A stretch of DNA of 64,000 nucleotides from Aphanomyces cochlioides (Eukaryota; Oomycota; Saprolegniomycetes; Saprolegniales; Verrucalvaceae): the NCBI GenBank assembly GCA_019828595.1, contig JAHQRK010000014.1, forward strand, positions 1,302,001-1,366,000, in the 5' to 3' direction. This document shows positions 1 through 56,783 of this stretch, piece after piece. A program made the position numbers and the translations under genes. The notes below the pieces were generated by a model. The model made no database searches. It was not told the DNA's origin and saw nothing but the letters and a program-made list of their open reading frames with translations. Numbering within the stretch: the first letter of the stretch is position 1; each line of letters opens with the position of its first letter.

Positions 1-977
1 GGCCAAATGCTGAACGTCATCATGGTCTCGTCGTTGTCGGTGATGAAGCTATAAGATCCCTTGTGCTGCATGTCGCCAAAAGATTGCGTGGTCAGGATGG
101 CGCGCTTCGTCAGATTGCGAATCCACGGGTAGACGCTTCGGTAGAATGCGAACAATTCGCGTTGAGAGAGAGTTGGGTTGGGAGTTCTCTGGGGCTCGTT
201 CAAGAGGCCGAGGCCGAGGAACGCATCATCATCTTTGTATCGGTTGATGATGAACTTGACCAAGTCTGTCGTCGCGTTGTACGCCAATTTGTTTTGAGCA
301 AGGTCAAAGTCTCTGCCAGATGTGACGGGGGCGGAACTAGGCTTCGAGTTCTGAGCTCCCAACGCAGCTGTGATATCGACGAGCACGGAGATGTTGTGCG
401 TCTTGGCCCATTCTTTGATGAGCTTGTCAAGGTAGTCAGCAGATCCTGCAGTAAACATCGAGTAGTGGAGGGGCAACCAATTCGTCGGGTCGTTCGTAAT
501 CGACTCCGTGTAGTTGGTGCCTGTGATCCAGAACCCAATGGGGACGCGTACTGTGTTCAATTTTGCTGCCGCAATGGCTCTGATGTCGTCTTCGGTGATC
601 CATGTATCTCGGTGGGTTTTGAACTTGGCGTCCATTTCGGTTTTCTTGTTGTTGTTCTTATACCAGTCCGCAACAGCAAACTCTCCAAGCGCTGAGACGT
701 TTGCTGGAACTCCTTGGTAAATGACGGACGAAGGAGTGACTTCATAGTCGGCAACGAGCCAGCCCGCAAGGTTAACACCTTGGACTTTCACGTGTCTTTC
801 AGTAATTGCGTACGACATGTGATAGTTGGGTGGATCTGGACGCTGCGAGATGCTCAGCAGGATGCAAACACCGATAACAACACCAAGTGGTAGACAGAAC
901 CATAAAAGACGGCGCAGAATCACCACGGAGGAGCTTACTTTGGCCACGGGTTCATCCAGAGCTGGGTCGTTCTTCAT
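1..977 (-). CDS. GH5-family exo-1,3-beta-glucanase-like protein, C-terminus cut by window edge
   Basis: The minus strand reads open from an ATG at 977 to the window edge (about 325 codons seen). A short acidic cytosolic stretch is followed by a hydrophobic segment (about residues 18-40) that looks like a type II signal anchor, then a glycosidase domain with GVNLAGWLVADY, the RVPIGFWI strand and, near residue 260, LLNEP, whose Glu is the expected GH5 acid/base. The nucleophile Glu would lie beyond the edge. Known relatives are oomycete and fungal glucan 1,3-beta-glucosidases, which trim beta-1,3-glucan of cell walls; that role is inferred here. The same frame stays open upstream of 977 to a TAG near 1183 but contains no further Met, so 977 is the best start. 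Confidence 0.85.
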   Translation of the reverse strand, partial: MKNDPALDEPVAKVSSSVVILRRLLWFCLPLGVVIGVCILLSISQRPDPPNYHMSYAITERHVKVQGVNLAGWLVADYEVTPSSVIYQGVPANVSALGEFAVADWYKNNNKKTEMDAKFKTHRDTWITEDDIRAIAAAKLNTVRVPIGFWITGTNYTESITNDPTNWLPLHYSMFTAGSADYLDKLIKEWAKTHNISVLVDITAALGAQNSKPSSAPVTSGRDFDLAQNKLAYNATTDLVKFIINRYKDDDAFLGLGLLNEPQRTPNPTLSQRELFAFYRSVYPWIRNLTKRAILTTQSFGDMQHKGSYSFITDNDETMMTFSIW

Positions 978-2226
978 CTCGACGGCGCCAGAGCAGAATC
1001 GAAAACTGGTCTGCAGTTCTGCATCGAGCTGGGCTCTTGCATCTGATTGGTGGAAATATGGAATGCTCGACGGGGAATTTTCCCACTGGATTGTCAAGGT
1101 GAACCATACAATTCGGAAACTCTGTGCCGTTTGAATAACCGTTGAATAACCAGCACCCAAGCACTCATGACTGTGATTCTATTCAAAGTGGTGTGCGAAG
1201 GAGATTCAAAACTTGAGGGAAAATGTTCTTAAATATCAAGACTAGTGTTGACTTGTGATCACGTGGATTGTGTAGGTCCAGTGGTCAGTCTGCACCCAGG
1301 TGAGTAGAAATCATCTGCAAGCAACAACGAAATGGGAAGAATCCGAATGTATTGAGTGGAATACTCCTAGTCAAGAGATCCAAATTTTCAGGTCTGGCGT
1401 GTGCAACAACCACGGCAATAATTTATTGCACCCAAATTTCCAAAAACAATTCTTGAAATTGATGTCTTAATTGCAGTATCAGGAATTTCGCACTTGTGGA
1501 TTGTCCAAGCAAGCAGTGCAAGTCGGACGCAGGTCGAATGTAGGAGACACTGGTTCATGTGTTGGTTTCATTTAGCGCAGAGTGTTCTCGTTTTTGTGTC
1601 TCAAATTCTGCCGACCAGCATTTTATACTTTTTCGAAAAATGTAATTTTTGGTTTTATTTTCATATTTTATGGTGATTTTTATTCTTTTTCGCAAAAATC
1701 GTTTCTGGTGCTTGTCTATTCAACCAAGCAAAGATGGAATTTTCCAACACATGACGTGTTGTCTCGACTCTGTAGATATCGCTGTGACGGAAGAAATGAC
1801 TCCAGAGGCGGTGCTCCATCATTCCTTTTATGGACACACCAATTTAGAAGCAAGTGTGTGGGAGTTGTTGGGGCCGCGGTATGTACCAACACTTCCCAAT
1901 GCAATTCGTAGTCTGAATTCAAACCTTGTGGCAGGCTCTATCGTGTTTCTCTCGGATTTGCTCATAGTTACAGGTTGCAAGTCGATGAATAGTCTTGGTT
2001 GCCCATGCTAGTTCTTCTCGCCGCTGTCCTATTTAGAAAACCTTAATGTTTAGATGTGTTGGTGGCGACGACCTCCCAAGGCCATGATACTTTACTATAG
2101 TACATCAGGAATCAAGATAAGTGCAATGATTCTATTCATGTCAGTCTACTTGGTGGAGATGCATGACTTGCTGCTTGTTTCGTTCCAGCAAGGCAATGCA
2201 GAATATCGCTTGGAATGCCCAACAAC
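978..2226. other. Intergenic region, no supported gene
   Basis: About 1.25 kb, partly AT-rich (1580-1720). A plus-strand reading frame at 1649-2011 (120 codons) has a reasonably protein-like second half (about 1755-1960) but no recognisable motif and a very hydrophobic, AT-rich start. I do not call it a gene. No repeats or RNA genes were seen. Confidence 0.4.
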
Positions 2227-2940
2227 TTACTTGTCCTTCTTCGCTTCCACGACGTACTTGCGAATGCAATCTTCTTTCAACTTGGCAAAACCATTCGGGA
2301 GCGACGCATAAGCTTCGACAGCTTTAGGCACACGGATCACGTTAGCAGGTGCATGTTCAGCGTAAAAGTTGGTCAACCATGCCGTCATTTGGCGATGTTT
2401 TCGCATTCGCCACAACCAGGGAACCACGAAAAACACACTGCTACAAAGGAGGCCAACCATAACAGCGCCAGTCATGCCATCTCCAAACAAGTAGCGCATC
2501 GCCATATTGAACGCAATCCAGGACATGTTGTACCACGTTAGCATGGCTTGGACTTTTTCAGGGCTCAACTTGGAATCAATATCTTTGGGTAAGTTCGAAC
2601 CCGTGGCTTTCAGCAAGGATCCAATTTGGTCGTGGACAATCTTGTTGACGGATTGCAAGCCACGTAGGTCCCCAGGAAATGCATTATTTGCGACAGCTGA
2701 TCCCTCGGATTTGCCTCGGGTTTCTTCCTTCACGTCATCCGTTGTCATCAATGCTTGAATTTGCGAGACTTGTTCAGGGCTGAGGACATACGCTGCCATG
2801 TCCGTGTCATCAGCGTTGATAGCCCCCAGGTCGACATTTAAACTTCCATCCACGTAGACATCCTTGGTAATAGCTCTTTCTTCAGCTCGCAAAGAGCAGA
2901 TCGCCGCCACGAGGAAGCCAACAAGCGCGACAAAGTGCAT
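2227..2940 (-). CDS. Secretory-pathway membrane protein of unknown function
   Basis: A single-exon ORF of 237 aa. It starts with a classical signal peptide (residues 1 to about 19, ending near SLRA) and continues with a hydrophilic, Asp/Glu-rich lumenal part. A hydrophobic segment follows at about residues 145-178 (AVMVGLLCSSVFFVVPWLW), then a basic patch RMRKHR and a C-terminal tail ending KKDK. This layout suggests a type I membrane protein. The KKDK end resembles the KKxx/KxKxx dilysine ER-retrieval signals but is not a perfect match, so ER residence is only a possibility. I do not recognise the family. The gene is divergent from the thioredoxin-fold gene, with about 440 bp between starts. 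Confidence 0.75.
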   Translation of the reverse strand: MHFVALVGFLVAAICSLRAEERAITKDVYVDGSLNVDLGAINADDTDMAAYVLSPEQVSQIQALMTTDDVKEETRGKSEGSAVANNAFPGDLRGLQSVNKIVHDQIGSLLKATGSNLPKDIDSKLSPEKVQAMLTWYNMSWIAFNMAMRYLFGDGMTGAVMVGLLCSSVFFVVPWLWRMRKHRQMTAWLTNFYAEHAPANVIRVPKAVEAYASLPNGFAKLKEDCIRKYVVEAKKDK

Positions 2941-3379
2941 CTTCTCTTGCTGCAGATTTCAAAAATGACCGAAAGATCGCTTTTTCGAAAAACCTCTCAG
3001 AGCGTATGCTCTTCGAAACTCTAATAATTTATATATGGAGAAGACATTTCACCTATGTGCATTGTCAAAGTGAATATCAAGTTTTGGAAAATTTCCGTAG
3101 AATGGCATGGCGCCGCAAGGACGACGCAATGGGCAGAAGAAGACAACGCAATTGACGCTGCATGGCGTATTTCGACTGATGATGTTTGTTAGATGATGGC
3201 AAGATGGCACGCCCGTCCTGACGCTGAGAGAACGGATGGACAAGGCGGAACCTGATTGCTGCTGATGTTTCGGTAAACGACTCGGGCTCACGATGTCAAG
3301 CTAATGAGGCTACACCTCGCGAACGCTAGGAAGATTCAATGTCGGCGTATAGAAAGCTCTCCGCCTATGGCTTCAGCTC
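2941..3379. promoter_or_regulatory. Shared divergent promoter region
   Basis: About 440 bp between two divergent starts (2940 on minus, 3380 on plus). It includes an AT-rich patch near 3020-3040. No specific element could be identified. Confidence 0.35.
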
Positions 3380-4145
3380 ATGCAACCATTTCAGTTGCTG
3401 AGATCTCTCAAAACCGCAAAGATGATGCAGATTGGAGCGGAACTTTCGCGGCAGTTACAGGACTACAAAGGTGTAACTGCCAGCTGGCCACTAGACGCAG
3501 AACCACCTCCAACCATGGCAAGCATCATTGTCAACTCGACGGCGCCGGACTTTGACATTGTCGACCTCGAGACAGGAGCAACATACTCGTTCTGTGACAT
3601 CGCATTGAATGGCAATCCGACAGTCGTCATGTTCTACGCCACGTGGTGCAACTCGTGCGTCCCCGCCGTCGAAGAGTTTGAGATGTGGTCCAAGCACAAC
3701 ATCCCGACGCCTTACATCAACTTTGTCTTGATCAACGTCGACAAGCACGTACGTCATCGCATGACGGACTTTGATCTTGACTCCATGGTGCGCTGTAGAT
3801 TGGCAATGCGATGAAATTCGTGTCAGAAATCAACCCAAAGACCAAGAAACCACGCGTGTGCACGGAATATCGCGGCGATGGCGACATGCCGACGGTCATC
3901 CATGTCGGCTGTGAAGATATTCCCGAGGGTATAGCGCTCGAACTGCTCGAATTTCCCATGACGTAGGCTATGGTGTGCATGTCGTGCCGCACAAGTTGGT
4001 CATCGACCAGAATGGCGTCGTCGTGCGCAACTTTGACGATTTCCACTGGGATGACATTGCGGGACTTTTCAAACATCGCTTTGAAGAAGACAACAAGTGC
4101 CACTGGACGCCGTTCCTCTTCCCAGACGCGACGCCCGCCATGTAG
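3380..4145 (+). CDS. Thioredoxin-fold (TlpA/nucleoredoxin-like) protein
   Basis: Three exons. The first carries a redoxin-type fold with the strand VVMFYATWCNSC, a CxxC redox motif (CNSC) after the usual Trp, then VPAVEEFEMW. Introns are inferred at about 3749-3798 (gtacgtcatc...ctgtag) and 3930-3966 (gtatagcg...gacgtag). The last exon gives a Tyr-Gly-Val...HKLVIDQNGVVV strand and ends at TAG 4143-4145. The size (about 210 aa) fits single-domain thioredoxin-like proteins that reduce disulfides. No signal peptide is evident. Met at 3380, 3421 or 3424 could be the start; I chose the first. The stop is only about 24 bp from the end of the convergent cyclic-nucleotide-binding gene. Confidence 0.8.
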
Positions 4146-4169: not shown

Positions 4170-6254
4170 TCACTCTCGCGAGTTTCCTCGCCATCTTGCA
4201 ACGTCGTCGGCGGCGGTTTGATGATCGGTGCTGCAATGACCTCAGTCGAGAACCTCCGCAAGGCACACTTACTTGACAATGAGCGACCCATTTTCGTCGT
4301 CGATGGCCGTAGATAGCATTGACTTTGCGCATTCGCAACGGCATTGTTCGGTGCGGTCCATATCGTCCTGGCCAATGCTGGGAATTGCAGCACGGGGTGG
4401 ATCTCCTGCGTCTCAGGGTGCTTCTGGCACGCGACAATGGGATGCTCTGTCGACACGTTCGTCAGTTGATGGAAAGCAGCAGCAGGGAGCGACCTTGCGT
4501 GTATCCTCTCGCACTCTTTTGGGCTTTGTTGTACGCTCGCACTTGAGCCGTCGTGGATTGCAGTGTTGCATTCCATATCAAGCGATACCTTCACGCGAAT
4601 CAACTCATGACCGAGAGGAAGAACGACGCCGTACCGCTCGCAGAGCTTGTCGATCGCTTTCACACTGAACGAATGGACCGTCGATGCGCAATGCACTTTG
4701 TCAATCACGACTAAATGGGCTTCTGTCTTGACGACTGCAGTGTGCACGCGCGTTGGCATCTAGACTCTCGTCATGATCACATTGCATGGATAGCAAGCTC
4801 AATCAACCTTGACAAAGTATTCCATGCCAAAGCAGCCCGTCGGTTCCACGACATAGCTCGGCACTTGGATGTGTGTTTTGTGCGACTGGACTGCCCAACT
4901 GTTGACGCTGGTCGGTCGACGGTGTTTCGTCTCGAACAGGACGTTCTTCTCGAGGGAAATCGTGCCTAGCATGGATCATTAGCTCCTTGGAATGAATGGA
5001 TGGCTGTGGATCGTACCAGATTTGACGATATACAGCGCGTCGACTTCTTCGCCTTCCATGTAGACGCAATTCCCAGCGTGCAAGAAGAGATCAACCGAGA
5101 CGGACTCAAAGTAGCGCAGCTTGTTGTCTGAAAAGTCGCGGAAGATCGACACGTCCGTGCGGAGCCACTTTGTGAGCTTCTTCCGGCGCTTCGCTTGGTA
5201 CCGATAGACGTTCTTCTGGTAGTCTTCGCCGCGAATGACGAGCAAGTCGGCGGGACACGTCTCCGTCACTTGAATATCCGCCGTCCGTTTGGCATCTTCA
5301 TGCTCGAGCGCCACTTCGCCAAAGCTCATGCCTTTCTTGAGCGTCCCAACCTTCTCGTTGTTGACGATAATGTCAACCTATGACGTTTTCAGTATCATAG
5401 ATCGCCGCTCTGCCGCTTACTTCGCCATTGACGATGATGTAGCATGCATCGCCGACGTCACCTTTCCGAAAGATGATTTGGTTTGGGGAATATGAGGCCC
5501 AGCGCATGCGTTTGGCGATTTCGCCCGCTTGGACGGCGTTGAGCGCTTTGAGTGACGGGACGTAGACAAGCCACTTGGAGAGCAATTGAATGTCAATCCC
5601 ATTGCGCTTCTCGGGCTCTTTCTGCGCGGCGAGGCGGACCTTCTCGTCTTCGCTGCATGCGCGATTGCTGAAGCGAGGAAAGAACGACTGAAAGTCCTTG
5701 CGCTCCGTGAGCCACTACAAGTCCAAGCCGTAACTCGAAACTACCGAGGAAGATGCAGTACCTGTGGAAAGATTGGCGTCGATTTCGTTCGTGCCAGCGA
5801 CGAGGCTGCTTGTAGATCATGGCTCTGCACTGGCTCGCCGCTCATTGACCGCATGTCAAGTGGTGGCCTTAATATAGTCACCGCCGAAACTGTCAAGTAT
5901 GCTGCTTCCCTCATCAAATCAGTGTGAAGCCACAAACTCCATCGAGGTCGTCAAAAGGAGCTCCCCCAGTGGCTCCATTAGCATTGCGCAGGTCATGCTA
6001 GTGACTCCAGAGCTAAAGACTTTGGGTAGACGTCGATAGAGGGCTGCCAAGAACGTGTGGACGTCGTGGAATTCGTGGCGAGTAATGTCCTAACGTCATC
6101 CGACTCGTGGCTTCAGCGTTTCCTCGATATCATTTGTTTCATCATCCACTTGACCAGGTGACAGCTCTTGGGATGGCTCCAGCAGTGAAGAATTGCCATG
6201 TTGACGGAGCTTGTGGTGGGTTTCAAGTCGTCCTCCAGAGTGTTTCTCAGCCAT
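4170..6254 (-). CDS. Cyclic-nucleotide-binding-domain protein
   Basis: Multi-exon minus-strand gene. It begins at ATG 6254 (MAEKHSGG...). An exon with ITRHEFHDVHTFLAALYRRLPKVF follows, and then a CNB domain split over exons: IIFRKGDVGDACYIIVNGE in 5373-5585, and MSFGEVALEHEDAKRTADI plus ADLLVI in 4979-5372. The FGEVAL segment is the phosphate-binding cassette, but the Arg that normally contacts the phosphate is followed here by an insertion-like EHEDAKRTA, so ligand binding is likely but not certain. A second, weaker CNB-like strand (CVYMEGEEVDALYIVKSG) follows. The family includes PKA regulatory subunits and uncharacterised protist CNB proteins. C-terminal exons are ambiguous: the best frame ends at TGA 4170-4172, an alternative at 4148. 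Confidence 0.7.
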
Positions 6255-6579
6255 TGAACGGTATCTGAGCGTCAGAACTCGACGTTTTCAGGTGGGTTGA
6301 CCACAAGTGATGCAGGGAAGGAAAAGCCAGCAGCTGAAAGCGTTTCATGCTTGAGAACAGTCCGTGAAGCTTTGGCGAGAGAAGGCTCTTCTCGACAAGA
6401 TCGCACGTGTCCAACGGGAAGTTTCACAACCGTCGGTTTCGCCCTTGTCAATGCCCCACGTCGACACTTTAGACTTGAAGTTTGTATACTTTTGGGATTT
6501 TGAGCGCCAGAATCAAGCGTTTCAAGCAGGACCCTGCGGATCTTGCATCGGGTTTGCGCTTCACAACTCATTGCTCTCG
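6255..6579. promoter_or_regulatory. Divergent intergenic promoter region
   Basis: 325 bp between the start of the CNB gene (minus) and the leishmanolysin-like gene (plus). Short ORFs overlap on both strands, but none shows family features. No element was resolved. Confidence 0.3.
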
Positions 6580-9500
6580 ATGCGACGCACCCTTGAGGCC
6601 GTTCTTGCGGCCGCGGCGGTGGTTCTCGCGCACGGTGGTCATGACTGCATGCACGACTATCAACTGAATCGCTTTGAGGTACTTTTCACCACGTTTGAGT
6701 CGCATGTTTGACCAAGTTGTCCACGGCAGCGGTCTGTCAACTTGGACACGCTCACGAACGAACAAGTACTCGAGACGCCAGGATCGCGCCGTCTCGCTGA
6801 CGCTTCGAAGCTCTTTCAACCGATTCGCATCTCGTTTGACGTGTCCAAACTCACCAGGTAGACAGCTCTCCCTCGGAGTCGACTGATGGAGTCCGTCGTA
6901 GTGATCCAGGATATCTCTGTTCCAAGGCGGGAGACGTCGTTACGCGTGATGGATCTTCATACACATGCACGCAAAACGATCTCCTGACCAAGGACAAAGC
7001 GGATTTCATCATCACGGTGCTCCTCCCTGCCGTCAAGACTTACTTTTCCAACGTCTTGTCCGTCCAGCCCGTCATTGGTCCCTTGATCGTGCGTCACTTA
7101 TCTGGAGCGATGACCATGGAGCTCATCGCTCTTCCGTAGATCTCTGGCATTGGATGCCAGTCGAATGAATGGGCGTGCTGTTCGTCGTCCATTCCATCCT
7201 ACTTGTCCAAGACTGGGGTTGCCAACACGGACTTCATAATCCACGTCACGGCGCGACCGACTTCTGGCGCTGTCCTGGCGTGGGCTCTTCCCTGCAACAT
7301 TGATCAATATGGCCGTCCGATCTCTGGCCAAGCCAACTTTGGTCCCAATCGGTCTGTGCTTCAACCCTTCAACTGGCTGACACTGCAACGTAGACTCGAC
7401 ACGCAAGCGGCCAGTCGCGCGGGTCAAATCGGCACGGCCATTCATGAAATCACGCACGCGCTGGCCTTCTCGTCGTCGCGCTTTGGCGATTTCCGTCAAC
7501 CTCTCAACGGTCCTCAGTGGGGCTCGGCAAATGTCATCTCCCAGACGCAGCAGAATGGCATCTACGTGACGAAACTCATCACGCCGCAAGTCGTCAAACA
7601 AGTCAAGCTGCAGTTCAACTGCCCCAACTGGTACACTGACGCTCTCGCGAGCATGCTGACGAAATGGTAGGCCTGGAGCTGGCGCCGAGTTGGAAAATGG
7701 ACCGACGGGATCGAGCGCATACTCGAGCCACTGGGAGAAGCGCCTCTTCCACAACGAGTACATGACGGCGACGAGCTCGTCGAATCCAGTCTTCTCGGCC
7801 ATCACGCTCGCCTTCTTTGAGGACACGGGTTGGTACACTGCCAACTACTCGACGGCGCAGACGTTGTCGTGGGGATATCTCGAAGGCTGCGACTTTGCAA
7901 CGTAAGATGCATTACCTTTGACTTACTAGGCTCATGGAGATGACTTGTAGCGGCCGATGCTCAGGATGGAGCAGCGACTACTTCTGTTCTAGCGCCAGTG
8001 AGCACTGCTCAGCGACGCGGGATGCCAAGGGCTACTGTGACGTTACGAGCTACACATCGAGCATCCCATCGGGCTTCCAGTACTTCAGCAACGTCGCATT
8101 TGGCGGTCAAGACTCGTATTCCGACTACTGCCCGACGTATCAAGGCTACAGCAACGGCGCTTGCTCCGACACGGTACCGCTCCTGCCTTTGTCCGTCGGC
8201 GCTGATGTTTGCTTGTCCTCCAGACGACGTACATGGACACGGATCTCGGCGAAGAGCTAGGGCCAGCGAGTCAGTGCTTTCAATCAAAACTGACCAAGAG
8301 CGGCTCGAGGAGCTCCTCACCGGCGTGCTATCCCGTTGTGAAATGCGATCAACGGAGCATGTACATCCGCGTGGGCGGGCAAGTCGTGGCGTGTCCATTG
8401 GCGGGCGGTGAGATTTCAGTTCCAGGCTTTGTTGGCACTGTGACGTACGTCGTTCGTCGCCTTCCTTCCCTCGTCTGACTCTACTTGTAGATGTCCGGCA
8501 GCAAACAAGATGTGTCAGCGCCTTCAGACGCAATGTTCAGGCCAGGGAATTCTCCAAGTCGATGGAACTTGTGCATGCAGCGCTGGTTTCCACGGCACCG
8601 ACTGCTCGCGCAAGGACTGTCCAGCGACGAACGGTGTCTCTTGCTCTGGCCACGGCACCTGCGACGACAAAGTCGGTGTTTGTACCTGTGACGCCGCCTA
8701 CACTGGTCTGGCTTGCTCGGATCTGCTCTGTCCAGTCGTCGCGGGCGACAAATTCACCGGCAAGCAATGCTCTGGCCATGGCACATGCAACTACGCGTCG
8801 GGAACTTGTACCTGCGCCAGTGGATATTCAGGTTTGCCACTCCGTTGAGCATCATGAGCTCATGTAACTCGTAGGCAAAGCTTGTGAGTGCGTCCCTGGC
8901 TGCACGACGTGCCAAAACGCTGGCTCGTGCGACTGCATGACTGGTAAATCGCGCTCTCCTTGCTCTTCATGTCTAACTTGCAAGCGCAGGCTCGTGTGTT
9001 TGTCCTGCTGGGTCGTATGGAAGCAAGTGCCAAACTCTCGGCGATGCACCGATCACGACGCTCCAGTTGGACGGTGGAGCGACCGTCCAGAGCAGCGTTC
9101 CTGCCAAGGTAAGCTCGTGATGGAGACGTTCGCATGGCGCTCATCCGATGCCAATCGTAGACGTATGCTTACTTCAAAGTGCTCTTGAATTCCAGCTCGT
9201 CGGACATCACTGCCGTGCTCAAGTCTGTCTCTGGCGGTACGTCCGCGCAGGGAGCGGCATGGAACGTAACACGGCGACTTGCATGTAGATGCTGACTTGT
9301 ACGGTTCATTTGCCGACACATATCCCGGTCCAGCGTCGCGCCGCACATCTCTCTTCATCAGCAACGCGAATCGAACGGATGGACTGGATGAAATCCAGCT
9401 CTGCGGCACGCTGGGCGAGTTCCCAAGAGCGCTCAACGACACGTTCCGCTTCTGCAGTCAGCCCAACACACTGCTCGTCCAAGGCGCGCCCGGGTATTTC

Positions 9501-12051
9501 TACATTGCGGTCTTTGGGTTCACTGCCGCGACGTTCGAACTCCACGTCGAGTCGGATCCATGCGTGAATGAATCCTGCTCCAACCATGGCCAATGCGGCA
9601 AAGTAAGCAACGCATTCCTTGAGCTCGTCGTCATGTCTTCCGTTAGTACTATGCCGGGGTCTGTGCTTGCGATCGCTTCTGGTCGGGGGAGCAATGTTCA
9701 ACGCCGCAATGCCGTCCGGATTGCATTGACTTCAACACGTGCAATTCTCCAGTAAGTTCTCCATGATCTCACCCCCTCTGGATGGATGCTGACGTGTTCC
9801 TAGTCGTCGCCGCCGTCGTTGTTTTCAGGCTTGCGCAATTCGACGCAGTGCTACGGCAATGGCGAATGCGTCGTCATGACGGACTCCAAAGGCGTCGAGC
9901 AGCCGACATGCGTCTGCGACGAAGCTTTCTCGTACGCCAACCCGACAGACGACCAGTCGATTTGCAAAGTTCCCATCCCGTCCATCGACTTCATCCAGCA
10001 TTTCAACGGCCCCTTTACAATTCAAGGCACGACGCTCGACAATCAGGTCTCCGTCGGCGTCTGGGCGATCTACACGTTGACGATTCAGCCGTCGTGGCAG
10101 TTTGTCTACGTCCAACTGGAACGCCTCTCGGACGGCAGCGATCCTCTTCTTGTCGTCCGCAAGACAAAACTCCCCTCGCTTGATCTTGCGCATCCGTATC
10201 CCCTCCAAGCTGCCGATCCCGCCGCTTGGACAAGTGCGTCTCGCATCCAGCGCGTCATGCTCACCCGAGCGAGTTCAACGGTGACAAACGACTTGCTCTA
10301 CATTGGCGTCTACAACTCTCGCTATGCTCGCAATGCCCTTGCGTTCACACTCACCGTCCAGACCAACTCGACGTGCGACGGACCAACGACCGCCGCATGT
10401 GGTGGAAACTGCGACGTTGCAACGCCCAAGTTATGTCAGTGCGGAGCCAATGCGACGGGAGATTTCTGCGACTTGGTCAACATTCCCCACCAAAGTCTCA
10501 TGCTCTCCCAGCCGTTGTCCATCGCGCCGTCCATCGTGCTCTACGAAGGAGGCTGGCAGGTACTGTCGTCGTCGTCGTCATCACCGAGCGGTGGAGCTTA
10601 CTTTTCTCGGTAGTATTTGACATTTGACGTCGTGGATCCACTCGTGGAGTTTGTCAAAGTCGAGCTCACGATGAGCAAGAGCAGCCCAAATATCAAGCCA
10701 CTGGTTCTCGTACGAGGTACAGAGCGCTGTCTCCTTCGTCGCCGCTGACATGGACCGCAGGACCGCTTGAAACGGGCTTTCCATCGTTGGATTTGAGCTC
10801 CGCCATGGATTTCAACGGCACGACGACGGCAGATTCGACGTCGCAAGTCGTGCTCGTGCCCGTGACCACGTCATGTCGAGGCCCCCAGTGCTACAAAGTT
10901 GCAATCCACAACAAAATCTACTCGGACGGCGTCTTGCAAGCCAACGTGACCATCTCCGGCATCGCGTCGGCCACAGATGCATTCCCAAGGACAGAATGTC
11001 CGAGCACTACGGGCGACGACTTGTACGTCTCCCAGCATCTCTGACGCGGCTAAGCTGTTCTTCTCTGTAGGAACTGCCATGGCCGCGGCACATGTGTCCT
11101 CGTGTCTTCTCAACCGACGTGCAAGTGCAAGAATGGCTGGAGCGGCGTCCGATGTAATTCGCCGCGAGCCTTTGCGATTTCGCAACTTTGGGCGGCGGCG
11201 GCCAACATTACCTTCCTCTGCAGTCTTTGTCAAGCGACGTTTACCCTCGCCAATGGCGCCGTTGCGATGTACATGCTGCCACAGAGCATGCAGCCCAACA
11301 CAGGCCTCCAGGTGCGCGTACGAGCTTCAGGAACGTCGTCGGTCTCGCCAAACATTTACGTGTCGGAGGTACGTCTTGCAGCCATGCCATAAATAATTTG
11401 ACTGACCGGTGACTTGTAGGTTCTCCCGCGATCCATATATGATTTCACCACGGTTTCCTTCTCGGTACTTCCATCACTGACGCTCTGGACGCTCAAGGAG
11501 AGCTGGCATAGGACGCAAGCGAAGAAGTCGTGCAGCTGACTACTCAACCACTTGAAGGGCATTTCTGGATTGCCATTTACTCGGAAGCGCCGCTCGCGAT
11601 GGATGCCAGCACGAGCAACTGGACGACATTCACGATCGAGTCAAGTTTGCTCCCGCTCAACACGACCACGATCGACAAACGATTGATCACGACGACGAGC
11701 TTCTTTGCCTCGGTCATGACGTGGTTGACCACAAATCCGTTTGGCATTGTCGTGTTGAGTCTCTTTTTGATCTTCCTCGGTCTCGCCATCTTTTACTTTG
11801 TCTGGCGTACGTTCCGCGCTCCAGACAACCAAGACAGCGCGGTACGAATCCATTTCATAGCCTTTCTTGATAGTTCTGTGTAGATCAGCACCCTTGCGGC
11901 AGATTTAGGCGAAGCAGCAGCACGAAGCGAGGAAGCGCGCGAACGACCGACGTCTCCACTGCGATCTGGCCGTTCTTTGAGCGACGCAATCACACCAAGC
12001 GCACCTCCAGCCGATCTAGATGTCGAACTCGCCCAAGTCGATCGCATTTGA
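6580..12051 (+). CDS. Leishmanolysin-like (peptidase M8) metalloprotease with EGF repeats and C-terminal TM anchor
   Basis: Large gene with roughly 18 short introns, most beginning gta/gtg and ending tag/cag. Exon 1 (6580-6679) encodes a signal peptide; exon 2 (6730-6857) continues with NLDTLTNEQVLE. The zinc motif HEITH lies near 7447-7461 in GTAIHEITHAL. A His in YSSHWEKRLF about 77 residues later is the likely third ligand. Cys-rich EGF-like modules follow (CSGHGTC pattern near 8640-8790, again near 9580). Later modules resemble lectin or beta-sandwich pre-peptidase C-terminal repeats. A single TM helix (about 11735-11800, IVVLSLFLIFLGLAIFYFVW) and an acidic cytosolic tail end at TGA 12049-12051. 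Expected role: surface zinc protease. A paralog lies at 49526-52220. Confidence 0.88.
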
Positions 12052-37761: not shown

Positions 37762-39509
37762 ATGGCCACTCCTGCCGCTGAAGTTCCTGCCGTCGTCGAA
37801 GAAGAAAAGGCCGCCGCGCCGCCTGCTCCAACCGATGCATTTTCGACAGGTTTCTCACCTCCAGATCAAGCTCAACTGATGTATGTGCGACCATTTAGAT
37901 GAGATTTCCCACTCACTCGATTACATCATGGCGATGGGACAAGGTCTTGATGCGGATAAGGAATACACCGCGACTTTGGATGTAATTGACTGAAAATGCG
38001 CGACTCTCATGAAAGCCTGGTAGATTGTTCGGTCTAACCCCAACTCGCACTTGTTTTCGGCCGTCTCGTTTGAAGAACTCAATTTGTACGATTCACGTCT
38101 GTGACCTTTCTGTACTGACAAGCTTTGTAGGCCAGAGCCACTCCTGAAAGGTGTGTATGCAATGAAATTTAACAAGCCATCGAAGATCCAAACCGTCGCA
38201 TTGCCTATGATCTTGACCAAGTATGAATCCCTCTTCGAACCTCTTGTGAATTTGACGTGAACAGTCCTCCGGAGAACCTTATCGGTCAGGCACAGAGTGG
38301 CAGTGGCAAAACCGCAACGTTTGTACTCGGTATGCTCTACCGTGCGATTCAGGACAAGACGAAGAAAGTCCAATCTCTGTGTCTCGCGCCGACTCGCGAA
38401 TTGGCTCGTCAAATTATGGCTGTGGTCAATGTGATGGGCTCCTTCTGTGGTGTTGAGACGTTCCTTGCGATTCCCGGGAACGAAGTCGAAAAGGGCGAGA
38501 CTATCACAGCTCAAATTGTCGTCGGTACCCCAGGTCGTGTCGAATCGCTTATCAAGAAGCGTACCCTTGACTTGCGCAACCTAAAGGTCGGTTCTGCTCT
38601 TTCCTCTAGCCCTGACATAAACATTTCGCCTAGATCTTTGTCTTGGACGAAGCAGATGTCATGATTGATGAATCTGGCATGCGAGACCGCTCGCTAGCCA
38701 TCAAAAAGTACGCGGGTTTCTCATTTTCAGGTCTAAACGTGAGAGTTTAGGATGATCAAGAACCCTAATTGCCAAATCCTCCTCTTTTCTGCCACGTACG
38801 CCGATGAAGTGCGTGAATTTGCCGAGAAGATGGTCCCCAACCACAACACAATCATGGTCAAGAAGGAGCGACTTTCCCTTGACGAAATCAAACAATTTTG
38901 GATCGATTGCAAGAGCCAAGAGAAGAAATATGAGATTCTGAGCGACATTTTCGGTCTCCTAAATGTCGGGAAGAGTGTCATCTTCGTCCAAGCGCGTGAG
39001 ACAGCCAAGAAATTGACTGCCTTCATGCGAGAAAAGGGTCATTCCGTCGGCATTCTCCACGGTGCCGACATGGCTAAAGAAGTTCGTGATCAAGTGCTCG
39101 ACGATTTCCGTTTGGGCACGACCAAAGTCCTCATCACGACCAATGTACAACATCATTCTTTGAACTCTTTGTGACTGGAAACTGTAGGTTTTGGCTCGTG
39201 GTATTGACGTCCTTGGCGTTTCACTCGTCGTTAACTTTGACATCCCCGTGAATCGCGAAGGCCATCCCGTAAAACATCTTACGTGATGAACTTGAAGGCT
39301 TACTGGGCTTTACGTAGGATCCCGAGACTTATTTGCACCGCATTGGGCGCACGGGCCGTTTTGGACGCAAGGGTGCTGCTATCAACTTTGTCTATGACAA
39401 CAAGTCCAAGATGGATTTGGCATTTATTGAAAATCATTACGAGAAGAAGATCGAAGAAGCGCCTGCCGATGACTTGGAAGCGTTGGAGAAATTGCTCGCG
39501 TGGACGTAA
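37762..39509 (+). CDS. DBP5: DEAD-box RNA helicase DBP5/DDX19
   Basis: About nine exons. N-terminus [12 protein letters not shown] is followed, after a 50-nt intron, by [16 protein letters not shown] and FSAVSFEEL. Helicase motifs: Q motif [10 protein letters not shown], Walker [24 protein letters not shown] as [11 protein letters not shown] as [10 protein letters not shown], then ILHGADM, TTNVLARGID and [11 protein letters not shown]. It ends [24 protein letters not shown] at TAA 39507-39509. DBP5 remodels mRNPs at the nuclear pore with Gle1 and IP6. The last 110 bp are part of a palindrome and are repeated in reverse at 40754-40863. Confidence 0.93.
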
Positions 39510-39532
39510 TGAGTCAATAAGAGAGTCGCACG

Positions 39533-40072
39533 TTATGAAGTGTAGAGTCGGTCTTTCTCGTCGATTGGAATGTCGTTGCCGCTCATGTCGCGGTGTTGCA
39601 TGTATCCTTGTTCGTCGAATTGCCAGAGTTCATTGCCGTGGCAGCGGAACCACTGACCGTCCGACACACGTTGGTATTCGTACGTGAAGCGCACGGCAAT
39701 GCGGTTTCCGTCGTAGCACCATAGATTCTTGACGAGCTTGTAGTTGGTCTCACCAACCCATTTGCGGGTGAGGAACTCGACGACCGCGTCGCGTCCGACG
39801 AAAATTTCATCGCGGTTGCGCCACACAGTGTCTTGGGTGTAGGCAAGGGAGACACGTGCCGCATCTCGGGAGTTCCATGCATCTTCGGCCGCTTTGACTT
39901 TTTGAAGCGCAGTTTCGCGTGTGAACGGTGGGAACGGCGCACGTGGTGTCTCGACGTTGGCAGCAAAGTCTCGAAGCGGTCCTTTGGCTGTCTCGGCCGT
40001 GTACAACGTGGACTTGGCGCTCTTCGAGAGCGCGTTCAAATGCGCCAAGGATTTCCAGCTTGCTCAGGTCAT
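39533..40072 (-). pseudogene. SnoaL-like (DUF1348) protein gene, left palindrome copy with early stop
   Basis: Identical in sequence to the right copy except at codon 3. The minus strand reads ATG (40072-40070), ACC, then TGA (40066-40064), where the right copy has CGA. From codon 4 onward the frame is open to the stop at 39533, and the domain is complete ([57 protein letters not shown]). There is no in-frame Met near the N-terminus downstream of the stop, so translation would need an upstream start, readthrough or a TTG at 40048. It is convergent with the helicase gene, 23 bp between stops. Confidence 0.7.
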
Positions 40073-40076
40073 GGGC

Positions 40077-40187
40077 AATTCCAAAATGGAAAAAGATTCT
40101 TGGACACTTTCCAGCATCATTTTGGAATTGACACTTTCCAAAATGGAAAAAGATTCTTGGACACTTTCCAGCATCATTTTGGAATTG
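40077..40187. repeat. 57-bp tandem duplication at the palindrome apex
   Basis: The unit around CCAAAATGGAAAAAGATTC begins at 40081 and again at 40138 (period 57). Each unit itself ends CATTTTGGAATTG, the complement of its start, so the apex is a stack of nested hairpins. The spacer (40089-40174) lies within it. Confidence 0.85.
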
Positions 40188-40190
40188 CCC

Positions 40191-40730
40191 ATGACCCGAG
40201 CAAGCTGGAAATCCTTGGCGCATTTGAACGCGCTCTCGAAGAGCGCCAAGTCCACGTTGTACACGGCCGAGACAGCCAAAGGACCGCTTCGAGACTTTGC
40301 TGCCAACGTCGAGACACCACGTGCGCCGTTCCCACCGTTCACACGCGAAACTGCGCTTCAAAAAGTCAAAGCGGCCGAAGATGCATGGAACTCCCGAGAT
40401 GCGGCACGTGTCTCCCTTGCCTACACCCAAGACACTGTGTGGCGCAACCGCGATGAAATTTTCGTCGGACGCGACGCGGTCGTCGAGTTCCTCACCCGCA
40501 AATGGGTTGGTGAGACCAACTACAAGCTCGTCAAGAATCTATGGTGCTACGACGGAAACCGCATTGCCGTGCGCTTCACGTACGAATACCAACGTGTGTC
40601 GGACGGTCAGTGGTTCCGCTGCCACGGCAATGAACTCTGGCAATTCGACGAACAAGGATACATGCAACACCGCGACATGAGCGGCAACGACATTCCAATC
40701 GACGAGAAAGACCGACTCTACACTTCATAA
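40191..40730 (+). CDS. SnoaL-like (DUF1348) protein, right palindrome copy
   Basis: About 179 aa starting [17 protein letters not shown] at 40191. The domain runs from about residue 50: [24 protein letters not shown], then [70 protein letters not shown] and IDEKDRLY. This matches the DUF1348 family, small NTF2/SnoaL-fold proteins of bacteria and eukaryotes with no settled function. The conserved Trp, Arg and acidic positions are all present. The upstream frame stays open through the palindrome apex, but that stretch is just repeat sequence; ATG 40191 is the natural start. Confidence 0.82.
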
Positions 40731-40753
40731 CGTGCGACTCTCTTATTGACTCA

Positions 40754-40863
40754 TTACGTCCACGCGAGCAATTTCTCCAACGCTTCCAAGTCATCGGCAG
40801 GCGCTTCTTCGATCTTCTTCTCGTAATGATTTTCAATAAATGCCAAATCCATCTTGGACTTGT
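40754..40863 (-). pseudogene. Duplicated 3' end of the DBP5-like helicase gene
   Basis: This minus-strand segment repeats the last about 110 bp of the helicase [21 protein letters not shown] through LLAWT and the stop. It is joined upstream (40864-41016) to unrelated sequence, the 3' flank of the ankyrin kinase. It cannot encode a helicase. It could provide antisense complementarity to helicase mRNA if the kinase transcript reads through. Confidence 0.85.
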
Positions 40864-41016
40864 CATAAAGTCGAGGAGGGCCATTTAAGTTGATGGCATC
40901 GTTCTTGGCAGCACCAATCTGCCAATCTGCAGGATGCAAGTGGTTGCATAAGATTGATGTGGATGTTGACTGCACACTCGTGTATTCATTTCGTTGACAA
41001 AAGTTTATAAACGTAT

Positions 41017-44000
41017 CTACATCATCGAACAATACTTTCGCTTCCACTTGGGGAGACAGCTCGAGTCGTCCTCTCCAACTTGGCTTGGCTGCCCAACGCG
41101 CTTCTTCAACGGCTTATCTTCCTCTTCTAGAAGACTTGTTAAAATTGTTTGCAGCGTCACGTCGTCATCTCCATCTTCAACTTCCTCCTCGCCGCTCTTT
41201 TTTCTCCATATGAATCGGCCATCAGTCGTTTCGACGCGCTCAAGACCAGCAAATGTATGACATGGGTCATGCAAATCGAACCAGAGTTTTAATTGACGCA
41301 GTGCTGCACGACGAACTTGTCCCGAGGATGGCAAGTGGCTGCCACCCAGCGTTTTCTCAAACATTTCAAACGTCACCAAAGGGGTTGCAACATAGTTCAC
41401 AAATGTTTCCCTCGTTGCTGACTGTGGCGCATTTCCACGGGATGGCAGCAATCCTGAAATGCCATTTTTCTTCAGCAAGGTGTTCAGACTTTGTTGGACC
41501 AACGGTAAACTCATGGCAAGAAAGGCGTAGTCATGTGGCGACACTTCTAGCGGATATAAGCCAGTCTCAGTCAACGCAAGAGTGCAAGAGAGGTCGTCCA
41601 TCAAGTACAAGTACATGGGCTGGCCACTCGTCCACTGTGCTAAGGCTGGTCCAATTGGTTTACCATTGCGCACGTCGTCTGAAAAGCGCGAGCACACTTT
41701 GGTGAACTGCGAAACATAGTTGCTGACCCTACTTGCGGCTTCATTTGGTTGCAAATCAGTCGGGCGGAAGGGCAGCAAGACGAGACTTGTCGGAGTTTCT
41801 GCCACGACGGACGGCACATCGGCTGCTTCTTCTAGCAACGACAAGGCCTCTTGTTTGTTGGTTTGAGCTTGGAGAAGAGGCTCTGGTTGGACCACTATAG
41901 TTGCTTGACCAGTGAAATATGAATGATGAAGCACATTTTCCAATTCCAAGCGTTGAGATGGATCTACAACAAGGAGCTGGCGCAATAAATGGCGCGCCGT
42001 CGAATCAGCAATATTGGCTTCGACACGGTCATGCAAAGTTGCCGTTGTCCATGATGCAGCTTCATGGACGCGGTCCGCCACAACATCTTCGTTGACATCC
42101 GTTGGGACCAATTCCTGTCCCGAGAGCATTTCATACATCATGCAGCCAAAGGCCCAACTATCAACAGCCGGGGAAGCAGCAATCAGAGAGTAGGGCAACT
42201 GAGATGTAGCAGCCATATCTGCACTTCGATGGAATGTCTTGACGACGTATCGCCCCATCTTGGGTTTGACCTTTTCCCACTCGACCCCGTCGTTATGTGT
42301 CTTCCAGTACGCTTCATACTTGGCCAATTCGTCATCCGATTCGAGCTTGTAAAACATCTCTGGAGGCAAAATGCCCGAGCTAAACTTGGCCCCAATGGAG
42401 TCGCCTATGCGCGCCGCAGCATCAAAGTCGATAAGTTTCAACTGACCCCGAACGCGCATGATGTTCAGTTTCTTGAGATCGCCGTGAACAAAATTGTTGG
42501 CATGGAGGTGAGCCAAGCCTGCAGCGACCTCTTCAAGCATTGATCGCACTGCATTGGCACTAGGTCGTTCCTTGAGGAAAATGTCTTCCAAACTGCGAGT
42601 AGCTGCTGGCATGACGATAACATGAGGATAATCTGACATGCAAATTTGATCATCGCCGCAATCCAGAGTCACTTCATGGACATGTTTGTCCAGGAACGAC
42701 TTGTCCTCAGTGGGAGCGAGGCCCAGGACATGCTTGGAATTCAAATTCTGTCTCGTCCACAGTTCACGAGCATACTCGTCTCCATTTTTCATAAACTTGA
42801 TGGCAACTTGAAGGAGCCCAAAGCGTCGTTGGCAGTAAGCCATGAACGAGCTATCATCGATTGTGCCTGTGTTGCTAGTGTCCATCGAGTCAAATTCCCG
42901 CATCCACATATCCATGTCGGATGATGATGCCTACATCAGAACAGTAAATCAAGTGCAACGGAATGGTTTTGTGCGTACCCGTCGTAGGGAGCGACTGCTA
43001 CGACCACCGCGACTCAATTGCTCCAGGACAGCATTGCAGCTGAGGAATCCATCCACATCAAGTGTTCCATCTTGCTTTGCATATTCTGCAAATACTTGGT
43101 CGCAAATGCCATGGTCGTTGGCCAAAACGACAACTGCGGTTGCACTCACATGGACGGGGGAGCCTTCGAGGATTTCATATCGTCCTGCAAAGCAAAGCAA
43201 ACGGTGCAAGAAGAGTCGAGTGTCCTGATCAGCAAGTGTCCACGCCTCTCGCTCGTGGGCGTCAAATGCATAGACCAATTCATGGGCTAGCACATGTCGA
43301 CTCACACCTTGAAACATCGGATGGTTTAGGATGGCTTCGACGACGGCTTTCTTTGAGACATCATCGCAGACAGAGACACGAGCGTCAAGAAATGTTGTCC
43401 AAGAATAAGATTGATCAGGTCGTGGCACAAGTGTATTGTCAACTACTTGGAATGGTAGATCGTGGAGGAGCATGGAAACAAGTCCACCGAGTGACAAGTA
43501 ACGAGCCACATTTGGAAGAACAAGTCGACCCTAGGTGAAACCATGAGGTGTTATACTTTCTCGGTCTGTACCTGAAACTTAGGGTCGACATTTGCACCGA
43601 GATCAATCAAACGAGCAACGAGCTCATACTTTTGACCTTGTAGAGCGGTTTGGACACACTAACCAACATGTCAGTTGAAAGTACAAGCACCTAAGACGTA
43701 CTCTATCACGACTTGCATCGCCAACGCGGTCCCAGAGAAGCTCCACGATGGTAATGTAGCCTAGACTTGCAGCCTTTTGAATAGCACATTGATTCTTCTA
43801 CAAGTGCGCACGTGAGGAAACACAGTCTACTTCGGCACAAGAACCTCTGATTTGAGATTTACATCAATCTCTGGACACGTCAAGAGCATCTGAACCACAT
43901 CTTCGTGTCCTTTGCTGCAAGCTCGAATCAAAGGGGTGGCCATTTTCTAACACCCATTAGTCAAATCCAGATCTGAGGGAAGCATGCTTACTTTTGACTC

Positions 44001-53988: not shown

Positions 53989-54408
53989 CTTCCTCTGTTT
54001 CACTTTACCGCCGACATTACACTTCAATATGACCCCAAAAAATCAAATCATGTTATTTTTTTATGATCGATATCACGTTGGTAAGACAATCAATAGCTAG
54101 AGAGAGTGTCTATTGACTGCAAAGAGGGAGAACAACGTTTTGTACTTCATAGAAATCATCCAGTTTTAAAAATGCAATATATAAAAAATTCAGTAAAAAA
54201 CTACGGTCCCTAGAGCAAATGCACCATGTGGTTTGGATTTGCCATATGTTGAATGATCAAATTCATCCATTTCAGACTGGATGACTGTCAAGGTTTTTAA
54301 CCAATAACATGCACTTATTTCATTTTTTGGCCAATTATTGTGCATTGTCGGTGGTAAAGTGGAACAAGTTGCATTTTGTCTGTCGGTGGCAAAGTGAAAC
54401 AGAGGAAG
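53989..54408. mobile_element. 420-bp MITE with about 30-bp TIRs (TA target)
   Basis: The left end CTTCCTCTGTTTCACTTTAC matches the reverse complement of the right end (GTGAAACAGAGGAAG) over about 28 bp with two mismatches. Flanked by TA at 53987-53988 and 54409-54410. The right TA is also the left target site of the adjoining Tc1-like element. Part of the right TIR is present twice (about 54348 and 54380). Non-coding. Confidence 0.78.
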
Positions 54409-54410
54409 TA

Positions 54411-55955
54411 CAGTATCGGAAATGGACATACGGACACCTCCATTTTTTAATTATTTCTTTACAATTGTGGAAAACGTTTTTCGAAATATATCAGTATAAA
54501 GAGAATTTCAAGACAAATCCAACAATGCATTTCTTGGTCAAAACAGAAAGCTTGGTGCAGTGAAACCATAAATTTTCAGAGGTGGAAGTAGATATAAGGA
54601 CATTCACGTTATCATGAATATTAAGCAAAAACAAGCTAATCAGTACCCAATTTTGTGTCCTTTCGCCTCGATCACGTCCAAACAACGGCGCTCCATGCTC
54701 TCAACAAGATTTGTCAAAGTTTCCTGTGGAATCTCCGACCAACAACGGACGATTTAGGCTTTCAACTCCACCAAGCTTTGGTACTGACGGCCATTCAGGT
54801 AAACTTTTCGGGCTAAGATGCCCCACAGGTTCTCTATAGGATTCAAGTCAGGACTAAGAGCTGGCCACTCAAGAACATTCAATTTTCTTCCCTGTAGCCA
54901 AGTTGTTGTTTCCTTGGAGGTGTGGATGGGGCGTTGTCGTGTTGAAAAACAACAGAAGGGCCATGATTCTCAGTGATAAAGGGAGTAGATGTTCAGATAA
55001 GGTTGAAATACACTTGGCAGAGTTTTGTTTTCCATCCAAAAATACAATTTTAGTCTTTCCGGACATGCTGAACGCAGCCAAATCATCACTCCGCCACCAC
55101 CATTTTGTCTCTTCGAATACATTTCATTTTCACGCCAAAGGTCAGCCCAATAGTACTTGAAACCATCCGGTCCATCGAGATTAAACTTCTCGTCGCTAAA
55201 CACAATTTCAGACCATATCTCCTTCAAGAATATGTTCTTCTTGGCAAATTTGAGACGTGCCTCCAGATGTCGTTTTTGGAGGGAAGGACAGGGTTTTCTT
55301 TTCTTGTCATTGAAACACGGGGAGGCATGCAAGATTTGTCGGACGCGACGATCAGTGATGGCAAGCTTTAAGGAGTCTTTGAGGTGCGTAGAGCTAGCTC
55401 CAGTGGAGGAAACTTCCTTGAAAAGTCGACGAACAGTTCTCTCGTCAACTTTTGGCTTTGGTCCAGGCCGTTGAATTGCTCCATATGCAGTTGGGTTGGA
55501 TAAAAACGATGCAATTACACTCTTAGAACGACCTGTCCTGCTTGCAATCTGCCTATAGGACAACTGGCATTCTGCATAAGCCAAAATCTTCTCGCGCTCG
55601 GCTTCACTGAGTGTTTGACCTCTTGGCATCCAAATGAAAAGTGATATGGGATGATGGGGTATGTTCGTACTCAGAATCGTGATTAGTATTCAATTATTTA
55701 GCGTAAACATGGCAAAAGTTGAAGTGACAGACGAAATAGCCCATCAAAACAAGTGTCCTTATATCTACTTCCACCTCTGAAAATTTATACTTGAGAGGTT
55801 TAACTGTACCAAGCTTTCTGTTTTGACCAAGAAATGCATTGTTGGATTTGTCTTGAAATTCTCTTTATACTGATATATTTCGAAAAACGTTTTCCACAAT
55901 TGTAAAAAAAAATAATTAAAAAATGGAGGTGTCCGTATATCCATTTCCGATACTG
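54411..55955. mobile_element. Tc1/mariner-like transposon with about 200-bp TIRs
   Basis: Ends CAGTATCGGAAATGGA... are inverted: left TIR 54411-54602, right TIR 55754-55955, with a few mismatches and a small indel. Flanked by TA (54409-54410, 55956-55957). The length of 1545 bp is normal for Tc1 elements. It carries a degenerate transposase on the minus strand. Confidence 0.9.
54640..55629 (-). pseudogene. Degenerate Tc1-like transposase
   Basis: Starts MPRGQTLSEAEREKILAYAE at 55629. HTH region: SYRQIASRTGRSKSVIASFL, then PGPKPKVDERTVRRL. The DDE domain begins with IVFSDEKFNLDGPDG (first Asp), continues out of frame with HDNAP (second Asp), and later DLNPIENLWG (Glu). The intact frame ends at 54970; the rest is recovered only by frame changes, and there is an in-frame TAA after SLVELKA. 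The end is GHKIGY at 54640. The protein is therefore not functional as read. Confidence 0.88.
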
Positions 55956-56783
55956 TACATGATTGGTGGTGTATACTGAGTACTACGTAGTATTAATACT
56001 ACAACATTTACAAATGTTTCTTTAAGCTCCAAAATGTCTGACTTGCTGCTTAAAAATACTAACAGTAAACAAGACATTTCCCATTGCGATTCCTTTTCGT
56101 TGGAACATAGCAAAAAGAACAGTCTACAGCTGAGTACAACGAAATCCAGATTGAAAATGGTTTGAATGTGGGTTTTTTAATGTAAAGTTAAAAGAAACTT
56201 CTAAAAACTCCGACTTTGACATTATAAAAAACAAACAAGACATGACAAAAGTTGATGTTTCTCGACTGATATCCCCATGAACTGTGTTGTCCTGAAGTGT
56301 CAAGCTTTGAATCGTTTGGGAAGTGTGGGTTTTTTAGGTCGTTTTGCAAGTTACTTTTTATAATCCTATTGTCTTTTTCACCCAAATTTGTATTTTTCTA
56401 CCAAAATTGAATTCATTTCCAAATCGATTCCATCATACTGAAGTTAAGTATAAATGAAAAGTACGGTAAATTGGCCAAATAAAATTCACGTGTGTTTTGG
56501 TGTGTTTTGCGTGAACTTGGTAAATAATCGATTCTGATTGGCTGATCGATTTGCAGATCGATTTGAAAAATCGATACATTTGAGACCCCTCTCACAATTT
56601 AGAATGAAATCGACAATAAAAGAATCCTAAAAAGAATCTCGAAGAAACATTTATTTAAATTTGGGAATAATTTTTTAAATTACTGGCCATGACCAAACTG
56701 CATTCTGAGCATTATGGAACAGAATAATGATAATTCTATTAATTTTACTTAAAGTCATGAATTCCCGCGTCTCCCTAACTGTA
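55956..56783. other. AT-rich intergenic region
   Basis: About 830 bp, no gene. Contains a CTGATTGGCTGATCGATT stretch near 56534 with overlapping inverted GATCGATTT units (56545-56577). Confidence 0.35.

Follow-up and report, generated by a model that had tools for sequence, protein, structure and literature searches.

A near-perfect gene palindrome beside a DBP5-type helicase gene in Aphanomyces cochlioides, probably an old inverted duplication kept homogeneous by gene conversion between its arms

For Drosophila the account in PMC3924832 describes palindromic gene pairs whose copies conversion keeps alike, namely Hsp70Aa/Ab, Hsp70Ba/Bb and Amy-p/Amy-d, and the hsp16 heat-shock modules of C. 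elegans, an inverted repeat with a 416-bp unique centre, appear in PMC3966223 as a cited conversion case. In the palindromes of the primate X and Y chromosomes arm-to-arm gene conversion keeps the arms more than 99% alike, as related in PMC3723533 and PMC8981503. A literature search by title, covering few subscription journals, gave no paper on a gene palindrome in any oomycete, Aphanomyces included. Near-perfect palindromes are commonly taken as fresh events or assembly faults, and the age of one can be revealed by the protein end of a neighbouring gene in another species.

The stretch of A. cochlioides DNA analysed here, called the window (64 kb), contains a left arm (39400..40088, + strand) and a right arm (40175..40863, − strand) of 689 bp each around an 86-bp spacer (40089..40174) with a GC content of 36%, against 53% in the arm. 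Compared base by base, the arms show one mismatch and no indels, and these figures, including the gap of 86 bp, are identical to those of the first-pass annotation, which had also reported two SnoaL-like genes and a copied helicase tail. Each arm contains a DUF1348/SnoaL-like gene and the 110-bp end of the helicase gene. With two inverted, near-identical arms and a short spacer the locus is a gene palindrome. The gene order on the + strand is helicase (ending at 39509), SnoaL-like gene (−), centre, SnoaL-like gene (+), helicase tail (−) and kinase (−), and the flanks differ, with the helicase gene to the left and the kinase gene to the right, both of unique sequence.

Among the six inverted pairs of at least 40 nt listed for the window the 689-bp arms are by far the longest, the runner-up having arms of 114 nt with 1229 nt between them. 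A 1701-bp query spanning the palindrome, searched against the whole assembly (76.2 Mb, 94 contigs) by a method that ignores very common words, matched one locus, on both strands. An inverted-repeat transposable element was considered and ruled out because the palindrome is found at a single place in the assembly. As a control 20 stretches of 10 kb were sampled from the same assembly (200 kb in total); inverted pairs with arms of at least 60 nt are present in 4 of the 20 (7 pairs), arms of at least 300 nt with a spacer below 300 nt in none, and the sole control pair of at least 300 nt, in stretch L016, has arms of 354 nt that are 3352 nt apart and is clipped by the stretch end. Two inverted pairs adjoin each other at 54408-55958 of the window, one with 114-nt arms (97%) and one with 53-nt arms (96%), the arms lying about 1.2-1.4 kb from each other; they resemble the ends of a DNA transposon. 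An A/T-rich inverted repeat with a MITE-like look is located at 8337-8997 of stretch L022; its arms measure 116 nt (97%) and 91 nt (91%), and its centre about 290 nt. Stretch L016 has inverted arms of 354 nt (100%) at 5941-10000 and of 155 nt (99%) at 1-4045, 3.4 and 3.7 kb apart respectively, each clipped by the stretch end.

The last exon of the helicase gene occupies 39318..39509 (+ strand), and the final 110 bp of the gene (39400-39509), including the TAA stop codon, lie inside the left arm. The helicase matches A. euteiches P0156 at 96%, P0160 carries the name DBP5 in Achlya, and by its close likeness to such named members the gene is assigned to the DDX19/DBP5 type. The copy of the tail in the right arm (40754..40863, − strand) is identical at 110 of 110 bp and is situated just past the kinase gene. 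The protein kinase open frame (41017..42915, − strand, 632 aa) is probably not the whole gene. A candidate intron of 132 nt with GT...AG ends (40904..41035, − strand) would link the kinase transcript to the tail copy in the way that the A. euteiches gene model predicts. If the frame is spliced in this way, a TAA codon follows KTMPST ahead of the tail. The predicted splices therefore suggest that a fused kinase-tail end is not kept in the A. cochlioides window, though the tail DNA is, and tail DNA kept without a fused frame would be expected from conversion by the real helicase exon with no selection on the fusion. The kinase has an ortholog of 97% in A. euteiches and other best matches of at most 44%, as might be seen in a fast-turning kinase family in Aphanomyces.

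The proteins of the window are nearest to those of A. euteiches, with 96% for the SnoaL-like protein, 96% for the helicase and 97% for the kinase. In that species the C terminus of the helicase forms the end of the kinase ortholog P0121 (tag Ae201684P_004865, 97% identity; longest contig 2.03 Mb), which is identical there to the A. euteiches helicase P0156 over 35 residues. P0121 is one sequence of a 7-member cluster and the tail was read from that one predicted protein; its last exon is a gene prediction, and the comparison with A. euteiches is made at the protein level. Strain ATCC201684 was sequenced by PacBio long reads according to the genome description in PMC8780586, and the letter P in the tag Ae201684P_004865 appears to mark that assembly. 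By this predicted protein the kinase gene adjoins the right arm's outer end in a second species too, in a separate assembly, and since a tail copy ends the A. euteiches kinase the duplication would predate the split of A. cochlioides and A. euteiches. The ancestral state may have been a single, unrearranged pair of helicase and SnoaL genes. The outgroup layout on the helicase side fits this, as A. invadans has the SnoaL gene H310_04515 and the helicase gene H310_04516 under consecutive tags, and in A. stellatus the SnoaL gene and the helicase are both on contigs of 23,866 bp.

The inverted duplication of helicase tail and SnoaL gene proposed in the first-pass annotation is thus supported as an event, but not its dating as very recent, which predicts a tail copy peculiar to this genome, while A. 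euteiches P0121 ends in the same tail. Had the inverted duplication happened very recently in this lineage, through template switching or priming from a fold-back at the central repeat, youth would explain the arm identity, in agreement with the single difference in 689 bp, the lack of indels and the presence of a 13-bp central inverted repeat as a possible priming site. The tail copy that already ends the kinase in A. euteiches makes this quite unlikely, as two independent duplications would have to share almost one and the same outer end. The first-pass annotation had also allowed for a chimeric fold-back read in the assembly, in which case the palindrome would not exist at all. Long reads are known to contain fold-back chimeras as errors, which counts in favour of this, but such a read is hard to reconcile with unique sequence flanking both sides, similar structures occur in none of the 20 sampled stretches, and the same tail stands next to the A. 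euteiches kinase, so that an artefact of this kind is extremely improbable.

If the arms are that old, their likeness must be accounted for. A comparison of A. cochlioides with A. euteiches gives 6 differences in 179 residues for the SnoaL protein, 7 in 355 for the helicase and 21 in 627 for the kinase; within the window the arms differ at 1 of 689 bases, as against those 6 of 179 SnoaL residues between the species, and at all six of these residues both copies in the window show the state of their own species. Arms that had been separate since before the split should have accumulated several residue changes and many silent ones, and the single difference therefore favours conversion; the Poisson probability of at most 1 difference when 6 are expected is 0.017, a loose bound that counts residues alone. 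We consider an old inverted duplication, ancestral with A. euteiches and homogenised by arm-to-arm gene conversion, to be the best reading of the locus, with a probability of roughly 0.78. In A. euteiches MF1 one identical SnoaL protein (P0002) stands under the consecutive tags AeMF1_009901 and AeMF1_009902, which agrees with a homogenised pair there and is given little weight, because MF1 is a short-read draft according to its published description and other paired tags of that strain (P0122, P0136) look like duplicate contigs. Another source of likeness would be a real palindrome in which reads mapping to both arms led consensus building or polishing to over-equalise the arms or to create the one difference. 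Long identical arms do draw ambiguous reads, yet one arm difference survived and homogenised proteins are suggested in A. euteiches as well (P0002), and we regard such an error as very unlikely. An older conversion boundary would leave diverged homology outside the arms. Anchored flank alignment gave a score that 127 of 5000 shuffles and 391 of 9680 genomic stretches equalled or exceeded, and in another flank-homology test beyond the arm ends 40 of 1000 shuffles did so; the signal is weakly above chance in both tests and was set aside as support.

The left DUF1348/SnoaL-like copy (39533..40072, − strand) has a stop at codon 3, and the right copy (40191..40730, + strand) is an intact frame of 179 aa. 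The protein matches PF07080 (DUF1348) with 201.8 bits at a cut-off of 22.1 and SnoaL_2 (PF12680) with 40.3 bits at a cut-off of 27; it belongs to the NTF2/SnoaL-like group, with 2imj as one solved relative, and no copy was found in the assembly beyond the palindrome pair. Cercospora nicotianae 71cR, studied for resistance to the toxin cercosporin, has DUF1348 as its domain, and PMC4608573 gives the biochemical function as unknown. The stop is the sole arm difference, at position 40066, where the base is A and the partner 40197 is G on the complement, and on the left coding strand it is a change from CGA to TGA at a CpG. Codon 3 is CGA (Arg) in the right copy, with the same residue in A. euteiches P0001, and by this comparison TGA is the derived state. 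The next methionine in frame is residue 158 of 179, and the left copy is therefore probably non-functional as assembled. The stop may reflect a genuine recent mutation, or it may be a polymorphism or an error in the consensus.

Under the old, homogenised duplication the following course may be envisaged. In a common ancestor of A. cochlioides and A. euteiches the helicase tail and the SnoaL-like gene would have been duplicated in inverted orientation next to the kinase gene, the short inverted repeat of the centre possibly serving as the site of a fold-back or template switch. Afterwards non-reciprocal recombination would act between the inverted copies, a break or nick in either arm being repaired from its partner; we infer both the conversion itself and its rate. 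Conversion could then erase the stop codon of the left copy or spread it.

The centre contains a 13-bp short inverted repeat at 40076, 40118 and 40175, and a 52-bp direct repeat in two copies (40079-40130 and 40136-40187) made up of the spacer and the arm ends, with no further copy anywhere in the assembly when up to 3 mismatches are allowed. Between the SnoaL start codons lie 118 bp. Folded as RNA, the central 164 nt reach -87.3 kcal/mol (z -13.67, none of 200 shuffles equally low), and by this measure the giant hairpin expected in the first-pass annotation holds as a potential of the sequence. In A. euteiches P0007 the upstream peptide KDSWTLTFLHHFGIDHDPSK resembles that preceding the right SnoaL copy. 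The orientation of the spacer was tried as a pointer to the original SnoaL copy and dropped, as the P0007 peptide does not decide the matter and the orientation of the centre is uninformative because crossing over from arm to arm would invert the spacer.

The palindrome might further tie the essential helicase gene to two others and provide a permanent route by which exons are captured and mutations pass between genes, with hairpin transcripts that may feed small-RNA silencing; this reading we think unlikely. If it held, the true DBP5-type last exon would still be engaged in conversion with a copy free of selection, and the tail copy in A. euteiches would have turned into the last exon of a kinase.

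As a conversion-kept gene palindrome the locus would add a small, compact oomycete case to those described. Since its arm extends into an essential gene, conversion could repair the helicase as well as endanger it. It is like the Drosophila Hsp70 and Amy pairs, as these are presented in the account cited above, in having adjacent mirror-image genes whose copies are alike within the species; unlike them it includes in its arm the last exon of an unrelated DBP5-type helicase gene, has a spacer of just 86 bp, and carries a stop in one copy. With hsp16 of C. elegans, in the cited treatment, it shares the inverted repeat around a short centre, but the genes are others and the hsp16 centre is longer. 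The primate palindromes are by their cited descriptions large and located on sex chromosomes, whereas the palindrome in the window is 1.5 kb long and belongs to an oomycete.
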